DNA from: Microcoleus sp. FACHB-1515
GTDB taxonomy: Bacteria; Cyanobacteriota; Cyanobacteriia; Elainellales; Elainellaceae
Reading direction: 5' to 3'
DNA: 64,000 nucleotides
Assembly (NCBI RefSeq): GCF_014696105.1
Contig: NZ_JACJPO010000038.1
Span: forward strand, 124,001 to 188,000
Positions 16,275 to 19,499 of this stretch are shown here, one piece after another. The position numbers and the translations under genes are program-made. Below the pieces are notes generated by a model. That model ran no database searches. It was not told the DNA's origin and saw nothing but the letters and a program-made list of their open reading frames with translations. Position 1 is the first letter of the stretch. Each line of letters begins with the position of its first letter.

Positions 16275-17408
16275 ATGACAAATACCGACATCAAGCCGCA
16301 ACCCGATTCCGGCAGCACTGCGCGACCCGATTCCGGCAGCGCTGCGCGATCGATCCGCGCCACGACTTCGCTTTCTCAGCAGCGATCGTCGCTTGCCGAT
16401 CCGCAAACGCAACTGGCGACGCTCAATCAGCTTGATTTACCCGACGGCAATTTTGGCAAGGCGATCGCACAGCATGGCTGGAACCGTTTGACACCCAGCG
16501 CGATCGAAATCTTTCAAATCAACGTTGGCAAACTGTGCAACATGGCTTGTCGCCACTGCCACGTTGATGCCGGTCCCGATCGCACTCGCGAAAACATGGA
16601 TCGCGACACGATCGACGCCTGCCTCCGTGCCCTCGACCAAACTGAAGCGCACACCGTTGACATCACAGGTGGCGCACCCGAACTGAATCCGCACTTTCGC
16701 TATCTTGTGGAGGAATGCGTTCAGCGCGGCAAACACGTGATCGATCGCTGCAATCTCACGGTTCTGCTGCTGCCCGGACGCCAAGATTTACCGCAGTGGC
16801 TTGGCGATCGCGGCGTTGAAGTCGTCTGCTCGCTACCACATTATCGCCAGCGCAATACCGATGCACAGCGCGGCGACGGCACATTTGAGCAATCGATCGA
16901 AGCCCTGCGCCGCCTCAATGCTGCCGGATATGGACAGGGCAATCCCCAGCGACAGCTTACGTTGATGTCAAATCCGGTCGGGGCGTTTTTGTCCTCCGGT
17001 CAGGCAAAGCTAGAGCAAGAGTGGAAAGTTGGGCTACAGCGCAATCATGAGGTTACGTTCGATCGCTTGATCACGCTTAACAACATGCCGATCTCGCGCT
17101 ATCTAGAATGGCTAGAGCGATCGGGCAATTTGCAGCAGTACATGGAACTGCTTGTGAATGCGTTTAATCCGGGGACGATCGCAGGCTTGATGTGTCGCAA
17201 CACAATTTCGATTTCCTGGGATGGGCGACTCTTCGACTGCGACTTTAATCAAATGCTGGATCTCGAAGTGCAGCCTGTTGACGGCCAGCGTCCAAACATT
17301 CGCGATTTCGATCTGCAACGGCTCGCCCAGCGGCAAATCGTCACTGGACGACACTGCTTCGGCTGTACGGCAGGGGCAGGAAGTTCCTGCGGCGGTGCGA
17401 TCGCGTAG
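16275..17408 (+). CDS. arsS: Arsenosugar biosynthesis radical SAM protein ArsS
   Basis: A radical S-adenosylmethionine enzyme (377 residues) that adds the adenosyl group to dimethylarsinous acid on the path to arsenosugars. The iron-sulfur cysteines are C88, C92 and C95 in LCNMACRHCHVDAGP. The C-terminal domain has the conserved ISWDGRLFDCDFNQ and ends HCFGCTAGAGSSCGG. The first ~25 residues contain a duplicated PDSGS(T/A)AR peptide, from a 24-bp tandem DNA repeat at 16302-16349. It follows the AhpD-like gene directly. No arsM methyltransferase gene is in the window. Confidence 0.93.
   Translation: MTNTDIKPQPDSGSTARPDSGSAARSIRATTSLSQQRSSLADPQTQLATLNQLDLPDGNFGKAIAQHGWNRLTPSAIEIFQINVGKLCNMACRHCHVDAGPDRTRENMDRDTIDACLRALDQTEAHTVDITGGAPELNPHFRYLVEECVQRGKHVIDRCNLTVLLLPGRQDLPQWLGDRGVEVVCSLPHYRQRNTDAQRGDGTFEQSIEALRRLNAAGYGQGNPQRQLTLMSNPVGAFLSSGQAKLEQEWKVGLQRNHEVTFDRLITLNNMPISRYLEWLERSGNLQQYMELLVNAFNPGTIAGLMCRNTISISWDGRLFDCDFNQMLDLEVQPVDGQRPNIRDFDLQRLAQRQIVTGRHCFGCTAGAGSSCGGAIA
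16302..16349 (+). repeat. 24-bp tandem duplication inside arsS
   Basis: Two adjacent 24-bp copies, 16302-16325 and 16326-16349, differ at one base (A or G). Each begins CCCGATTCCGGCAGC and encodes PDSGSTAR or PDSGSAAR, extending the N-terminus ahead of the radical SAM domain. Confidence 0.85.
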
Positions 17409-17585: not shown

Positions 17586-18104
17586 CTATGCGTTCTCAGG
17601 CTTGCGTTTGCCGAGCATGTAGCGAGTCGCAGCTAATGCTTCAGGAATTGCCAGCGCAAACGAGACGATCGAACACAAAGTCGCCACCTGACAATAAGCA
17701 CAGAAAGCTTGATTTTCGTCCCACTCTTCGCGAGCCAGCCAAAGGGCAAGCGCGGAATCAAAGAATGTTTTGATCGCAAGGGCGATCGGCAGAATTGGAT
17801 TTTGCGTAGCGCGATTCATGCCGCCTGCCGCTGCAATTAAAGCCGTGATCGAATAGTTCGTCACCATCATGAAGCCGTCGGGCGTATCGAAGCGTTTGTA
17901 GGCATAATTTGAGGCATCCACTTTGCTCGAATCGATCAGCGGAATTGGCGGATCAGGCAGTTCTTTAATCATGCCAACCTGATATAGCGAAACGGCTTCG
18001 CCCATCAGTGCCCCGACCCCCGATAGACCAATAATTAAACGGCGACGAGAAAGATCGGGATTTTTGCCTTCTCGCAATTCTCGGCTCAGTTGGCTCGGCT
18101 CCAT
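17586..18104 (-). CDS. VKOR-like membrane protein lacking the loop cysteines
   Basis: A 172-residue protein with three or four hydrophobic helices (LIIGLSGVGALMGEAVSLYQ, FMMVTNYSITALIAAAGG, ILPIALAIKTFFDSALALWL, ATLCSIVSFALAIPEALAA). It resembles the vitamin K epoxide reductase fold: the motif FCAYCQ, with the family's CxxC, opens the last helix, and a VDASNYAYKRF..P segment matches the loop after helix 1. In VKOR this loop holds a second cysteine pair; here serines stand in its place (DSSKVDAS). So disulfide relay to a partner may differ. The ATG (complement of 18102-18104) follows GCGGAG. A longer frame start at 18239 is unlikely. Confidence 0.72.
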   Translation of the reverse strand: MEPSQLSRELREGKNPDLSRRRLIIGLSGVGALMGEAVSLYQVGMIKELPDPPIPLIDSSKVDASNYAYKRFDTPDGFMMVTNYSITALIAAAGGMNRATQNPILPIALAIKTFFDSALALWLAREEWDENQAFCAYCQVATLCSIVSFALAIPEALAATRYMLGKRKPENA

Positions 18105-18257
18105 GATGAACACTCCGCAATGATTTTCTTCATTTTGGAGAGCGGTTCGGTCAGCAACACCTAACGCAAGACGTACACCGATCGAGAGATTTATTGTGTC
18201 GAGAAAAAGTTCAAATTCGATCGCTCTGACCTGCCTCACAAAGCGATCGATGCTTGC

Positions 18258-18671
18258 TTATCGCGCCATCCACTCGCGATCGTGCTTATTCCAGTAGCGC
18301 GAAAAACGTCGAGAAACAGTTGCTTCTTTGCCCGGATAAATTTCATCGTAAACGACGAGTTTGGCAAACTTGCTCACTTCGCGCTGGTGCGATCGAATGA
18401 TGTGATTTGGCGTTTCGCTGGTCACAATTTCTCGCGTCTGGTGCTGAGCGATGAGCTGCTGCAAAATCGCGACCGTTTCGCCTTTGTAGATTTGGATGTC
18501 AGGAATCTCAAGCAGCGACTCGTAGATGAATTGAATTCGATGCTTGCTGATATTCCACTGCTGGAGATAGGACAGATCGAAAACATAAATTCTCGGTGCA
18601 TCGACATAATCTTTAATCATTTCGTGATCAGGATTAATGCCGTCTTCGTTCAACCAGATTAAAGCTGTCAT
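18258..18671 (-). CDS. Stand-alone photolyase-type alpha/beta domain protein
   Basis: A 137-residue protein resembling the N-terminal Rossmann-like domain of DNA photolyases and cryptochromes, normally the antenna-binding half. Visible matches: MTALIWLNEDG (the family usually has WFRRDLR here, so this signature is lost), RIYVFDLSYLQQW, and RIQFIYESLLEIPDIQIYKGE, corresponding to the R..FL.ESL..L pattern. There is no helical FAD domain; that half is encoded by the neighbouring gene, 12 bp upstream on the same strand. Together they would form a split photolyase-like protein in which the FAD domain is translated first. Family recognition is fair but not certain. Confidence 0.65.
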   Translation of the reverse strand: MTALIWLNEDGINPDHEMIKDYVDAPRIYVFDLSYLQQWNISKHRIQFIYESLLEIPDIQIYKGETVAILQQLIAQHQTREIVTSETPNHIIRSHQREVSKFAKLVVYDEIYPGKEATVSRRFSRYWNKHDREWMAR

Positions 18672-18683
18672 GTCAAATCAAGA

Positions 18684-19499
18684 TTAACGATATTTTCCGG
18701 TACTGCGAGCAGGTTGAGAAACGAAGCTGCCACCAAATAAGCGTTCTTCTAACTCTTCATAGGAGTAGTTGAACGGATCGTTTCGGCGCGGATCTCCAGG
18801 TAGAACTGAGCCACCATAGCGCTCTAGATTTTCACGATTGAAGATGTATGGTTTATTAGAAAAAGTCGAGGCGACCCACTGCCAAGAGAGATGATTGCTG
18901 CCCATATCACCATCAATCAGCAGGCTATACATCCAGTCGGCTCCGACACGCCAAGAAACCTTACGAAAATGCACAATGTAGCTAGCAAGATAAAGGCGAG
19001 CGTGATTATGCAAATAGCCTTCATCTTTGAGCAGTTGAATTAGGGTATCCATTGAAGGAATTCCTGTTTCTGCATTTGCAATATCGTCAGGCAGCGTGGT
19101 TCGATGTTCGCGCATGGAAACCTTTGGCTGTTCAATATCTTGGAGAATGCGATCGCCCTCTTCTAGATAAATCAAGCGAAAGAAAGCTCGCCACGCCAAT
19201 TCCGAAATGAACTTTTCAAGCGCGTTGTATTTCGATCGATTCAGCGCCCACTGCCGCACTTCTTCCAGTTCCAAACAGCCGCGACTGATATATGGCGATA
19301 ACACACTGACTGTGCCGTCGAGAAAATTGCGCTGCTTGGCATATTTCTCAACCGGAAAATGCTCTAGCCGCTGGAGTCCTTTCGATCGCCCGCCTTCATG
19401 GGGCGACAAAACGCCTGGATCTTCAAGAAAATTAAATTCCTCTAGGAGATAGTCTGCGATCGCTTGGCGATCCGTGAGATCAGTACGAAGCTGCTGCAT
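18684..19499 (-). CDS. Stand-alone FAD-binding domain of the photolyase/cryptochrome family
   Basis: A 271-residue all-helical flavin domain. It shows the photolyase signature: WRAFFRLIYLEEGDR, then the run HNHARLYLASYIVHFRKVSW, and DGDMGSNHLSWQWVASTFSN, leading into KPYIFNRENLERYGG. Photolyases use this domain with FAD to split UV-made pyrimidine dimers with blue light; cryptochromes use it for light sensing. The alpha/beta half is absent here and is apparently supplied by the next gene (18258). Activity on DNA cannot be judged by eye. The ATG complements 19497-19499; a 12-bp gap to the partner suggests one transcript. Confidence 0.85.
   Translation of the reverse strand: MQQLRTDLTDRQAIADYLLEEFNFLEDPGVLSPHEGGRSKGLQRLEHFPVEKYAKQRNFLDGTVSVLSPYISRGCLELEEVRQWALNRSKYNALEKFISELAWRAFFRLIYLEEGDRILQDIEQPKVSMREHRTTLPDDIANAETGIPSMDTLIQLLKDEGYLHNHARLYLASYIVHFRKVSWRVGADWMYSLLIDGDMGSNHLSWQWVASTFSNKPYIFNRENLERYGGSVLPGDPRRNDPFNYSYEELEERLFGGSFVSQPARSTGKYR

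Follow-up and report, generated by a model that had tools for sequence, protein, structure and literature searches.

Two adjacent genes of Microcoleus sp. FACHB-1515, found in a stretch of 64,000 nucleotides (hereafter the window), look like the two domains of a photolyase encoded separately and in reversed order, and the question is whether their products act together and, if so, as what. The preliminary description of this DNA had placed an FAD domain first and a small alpha/beta-like gene 12 bp behind it; both frames, and the motifs quoted for them, are indeed found on the minus strand, as follows.

18684..19499 (read 19499..18684), minus strand: FAD-domain gene, 271 aa; putative catalytic subunit of Phr4/SPL type, without Fe-S cysteines
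18846..19211, minus strand: Pfam FAD_binding_7 stretch, residues 97-218 of the FAD protein; FAD-binding and active-site core
18777..19055, minus strand: Fe-S cysteine positions of other split members; window residues 149 Ser, 234 Pro, a gap column and 241 Asp
18672..18683, minus strand: spacer between FAD gene and small gene, 12 bp: stop TAA, then TCTTGATTTGAC, then ATG
18258..18671 (read 18671..18258), minus strand: small gene, 137 aa; putative antenna-domain-like subunit of Phr5 type
18291..18305, minus strand: FSRYW motif, small protein residues 123-127, near the C-terminus; resembles SFSxFW of the Z-domain

Both genes lie in the same frame with two stop codons between them, and the FSRYW motif of the small protein is conserved. 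Scans for promoters and terminators returned nothing above chance. Directly downstream, and likewise on the minus strand, follows a gene for a VKOR-family protein with a CxxC motif (17586-18239), which starts 18 bp past the small gene if a GTG start is used; a radical SAM protein with a DUF3641 C-terminal domain is encoded at 16275-17408 (plus strand).

The same reversed-order split arrangement was described in 2022 as phr4/phr5 of marine Synechococcus and Cyanobium, together with phr6, a fused form in two Cyanobium strains, and Nostoc punctiforme was stated to have the same complement (PMC9426592). The premise that photolyases are one polypeptide with one domain order was therefore already outdated, and the split reversed arrangement itself is not a new kind of system. 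What the present analysis adds is a freshwater variant free of the Fe-S site, the strict pairing of both genes, their exclusion with cryptochrome DASH, and a link that the small-protein family makes between the antenna domain and the Z-domain of NewPHL photolyases.

The FAD protein, its active site and the iron-sulphur cysteines

The FAD protein scores 82.7 bits against Pfam FAD_binding_7 (cut-off 27), over profile positions 1-125 of 203 only, so that the usual C-terminal end of the domain is absent. It matches 44 distinct solved photolyase and cryptochrome sequences in the PDB, from E 4.8e-18, and reaches 91.7 bits with the cryptochrome DASH model TIGR02765, under the cut-off of 317. Phage matches to this protein are distant (28-32% identity, coverage of at most 76%).

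When its active-site residues were mapped onto the A. nidulans photolyase, most flavin- and CPD-contacting residues were found to be kept, including all of E283, W286, R287, N349, the flavin-binding D380, D382 and N386, W390 and W392 (numbering of that enzyme). Met353 of CPD photolyases corresponds to Leu169 in the window, a Leu that is also found in 15 of the 26 NewPHL rows, and the usual electron chain lacks its distal tryptophan; these two changes also set the protein apart from class I CPD photolyases such as that of A. nidulans. The window pair shares with this class the presence of both domains and most of the flavin and CPD contacts, and differs from it in having two genes, in reversed order, with an FAD domain that ends early.

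The fold is common to cryptochromes, and the missing tryptophan and the changed active-site methionine would both be compatible with a blue-light sensor that repairs nothing, which is one of the two functions suggested in the preliminary description. We nevertheless regard a sensor as quite improbable, since the CPD site is otherwise conserved throughout the group and the pair has neither a signalling extension nor an adjoining signalling gene; nothing in the data points towards this half of the suggestion.

Four Fe-S cysteines were stated for all Phr4 and Phr6 proteins (PMC9426592), and of the 40 FAD homologues that we aligned, 37 have all four corresponding cysteines. Ser, Pro, a gap and Asp stand there in the window, its genus mate and one further genome (G229), and further members of the Leptolyngbyaceae have one or two cysteines only, located elsewhere than in the Fe-S columns. 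As judged from the alignment, the window lineage is thus without all four cysteines that the other split members keep, which makes the window pair a variant rather than a plain member of Phr4/Phr5. In a tree of 76 FAD domains the window clade forms its own branch with support of 100/99, and the tree does not separate which of Phr4/6, NewPHL or Phr7 is its sister, so that it fits equally a site for Fe-S that was lost and one that never existed in this clade.

The window pair and Phr4/Phr5 have homologous subunits and the same layout, a separate FAD gene followed by a gene for a DNA-photolyase domain; the window FAD protein is 41-47% identical to the split relatives found, and the small protein about 24-32%. 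Apart from the cysteines and the well-supported branch, the window lineage differs from Phr4/Phr5 in its short spacer of variable length. The SPL class, with a third Synechococcus elongatus gene assigned to it, was named in PMC9178010. NewPHL/SPL proteins, including Phr7 of Prochlorococcus, have the FAD domain first, no Fe-S cysteines and a related catalytic domain (up to about 50% identity with that of the window); as in these proteins, the catalytic domain of the window comes first, without an N-terminal antenna domain in the same chain. The Z-domain of NewPHL forms one polypeptide with the catalytic domain, whereas the window has a separate small gene that is homologous to it at the family level only, and the two lie on separate branches of the tree.

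For Phr4/Phr5 a (6-4) photolyase activity was predicted from the Fe-S cysteines, and Phr4 mutants were reported to be more sensitive to UV-C than to UV-B (PMC9426592). The close homology of the window pair to Phr4/Phr5 would extend this prediction to it, but we consider it unlikely here: the cysteines on which the prediction was built are absent from the window lineage, and Asn349 of CPD enzymes is kept. The genome of the window also carries one separate PF04244-type gene, belonging to the group that includes the prokaryotic (6-4) photolyases, which again argues against a (6-4) function of the pair.

The small protein and the photolyase antenna domain

Taken alone, the small protein falls under the cut-off of Pfam DNA_photolyase (E=0.023), and as a single sequence it gave chance-level matches only in the PDB, so that its relation to photolyases becomes visible only by a family profile. 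The profile built from an alignment of 45 relatives was compared with that of the N-domain of 26 canonical photolyases and matched it with 94.7% probability and an E-value of 5.9e-8 over 108 columns; reversed controls gave 0.1% probability and E-values of 0.54-0.59, all E-values being per single comparison. In this profile alignment LIWLNEDG falls on LFWHRRDL, so that WLNEDG of the small protein takes the position of WHRRDLR, with which canonical photolyases start and where WxRRDLR is the norm; this bears out the earlier remark on a lost WFRRDLR-type start.

The AlphaFold2 model of the small protein has a five-strand alpha/beta fold (mean pLDDT 83.6). Foldseek with this model listed photolyases and cryptochromes, with TM-scores up to 0.68 on the query, along with two other groups of the same HUP-type fold, universal stress proteins and phosphopantetheine adenylyltransferases, and no match passed E 0.001. 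The fold search alone is therefore unspecific and it is the profile match that singles the antenna domain out; taken together, profile and model indicate that the small protein has a photolyase antenna-domain fold, and not the unrelated fold that would have spoken against the pair.

The small-protein family also matches the C-terminal Z-domain of NewPHL-type proteins, with 75.5% probability in a profile comparison. Direct comparison of the Z-domain profile with that of the canonical N-domain failed (1.7%), so the link between these two domains runs only via the small family, which in these profile comparisons appears to connect the antenna domain to the Z-domain of NewPHL photolyases.

Co-occurrence and linkage of the two genes

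Of 386 genomes of the phylum, 81 have the small gene and 82 the FAD gene; 79 carry both. In the family of the window both genes are present in the same 10 of 36 genomes. The three genomes with the FAD gene only hold two natural one-gene fusions (L105, L106) and one NewPHL-type protein (L107), and the two with the small gene only hold a truncated copy or relic (L108) and a gene that runs off the edge of its contig (L109). The pairing expected in other cyanobacteria thus holds, and a split FAD gene was found alone in none of the 386 genomes. In 55 of the 79 genomes with both, the genes are adjacent with the FAD gene first; in the other 24 they are not adjacent, and 22 of these have them far apart or on other contigs. 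What argues most strongly for two subunits acting together is that the genes remain paired even where they are not linked.

In one genome (G284) the two genes occur a second time, as partial copies next to each other (L113), apparently a decaying duplicate, and in a low-coverage metagenome assembly (G413; L004 and L171) the FAD gene is broken into two frames and the small gene intact, probably by assembly error. Three proteobacterial loci (L007, L013, L044) have a full-length photolyase/cryptochrome gene directly after a NewPHL-type gene.

Whether phr4/phr5 yield a frameshifted single protein or a heterodimer was asked in the 2022 work, which raised the fusion because of the constant spacer in marine Synechococcus (PMC9426592). 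A programmed frameshift or stop read-through would give one fused, reversed-order photolyase like phr6, and this constant spacer, the existence of the natural fusions L105 and L106 and the shared frame of the two window genes would all fit such a product. Against it, the window has its two stop codons, the spacers of close relatives measure anything from 0 to 34 bp and put the genes in any of the three frames, and the genes are not adjacent in 24 of the 79 genomes; frameshift fusion was set aside on account of these unlinked pairs, and we hold it to be very improbable. Strict pairing fits two separate subunits and speaks against frameshift fusion as the rule.

For a joint model the FAD gene and the small gene were joined artificially by translating in frame through the stops (NCBI table 27), and this chain was aligned with the two natural fusions and unpaired rows. 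The model reached a pTM of 0.80 over the two domains, with a low-confidence linker (residues 257-276), and in the PDB it resembles photolyases most, the match lying over the FAD domain; for this artificial chain the model hints at a docking of the two subunits and is no proof of it.

Cryptochrome DASH and the proposed two-subunit photolyase

Eighty-one genomes carry the pair or its fusion and 63 carry cryptochrome DASH over the cut-off, with an overlap of 0 where 13.2 would be expected (Fisher p 8e-8, from counts that ignore the shared ancestry of the genomes). In the family of the window (36 genomes), 10 have the pair, 22 have DASH, 4 have neither and none has both; on an rpoB tree this corresponds to two or three switches, too few for the sign test, which is not significant. 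Genomes with the pair and genomes with DASH also stand side by side in the families f10 and f18. The genome of the window otherwise holds one photolyase nearest to the 8-HDF type, somewhat under the cut-off of that model. These observations suggest that the pair replaces cryptochrome DASH: it apparently fills the same slot of the photolyase set. DASH itself differs from the pair in being a single chain with the usual domain order. This apparent replacement and the largely intact repair site point to repair, so that of the two functions first suggested, sensor or unusual repair enzyme, the second is the likelier.

We propose that each gene encodes one half of a single photolyase and that the two chains would dock in trans: the FAD protein as catalytic subunit (Phr4/SPL type), the small protein as its antenna-domain-like partner (Phr5 type). 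Light would excite the flavin, possibly helped by a chromophore that the small subunit carries; an electron would then split a cyclobutane pyrimidine dimer, with single-stranded DNA as the probable substrate. The pair would take the place held by cryptochrome DASH in other cyanobacteria, and the window lineage would manage this without an iron-sulphur cluster. We give a probability of roughly 0.6 to the pair being a two-subunit, Fe-S-free photolyase, probably for CPDs in single-stranded DNA, a reading in which docking, chromophore, substrate and strand preference are inferred. That phr4/phr5 raised the survival of E. coli after UV-C counts in its favour, but the gain in the light did not differ significantly from that in the dark (PMC9426592). 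Against it also count the (6-4) prediction for Phr4/Phr5, the Met353 to Leu change, the missing distal tryptophan, the shared ancestry behind the genome counts and the artificial chain from which docking was modelled. A broader scheme is tentative and, on balance, rather doubtful: an Fe-S-free, obligate two-subunit photolyase that replaces DASH, with a small subunit linking the N-terminal antenna domain to the C-terminal Z-domain and a domain order reshuffled via a two-gene stage.

For the family, the pairing of genes that lie far apart favours separate subunits over a frameshift fusion as the answer to the question left open in 2022. In the window lineage and its cysteine-bearing relatives, nature provides the same split enzyme in forms that differ in the Fe-S cluster and can be compared, and the distribution gives a rule that can be tested: a cyanobacterium has the pair or it has cryptochrome DASH, never both.
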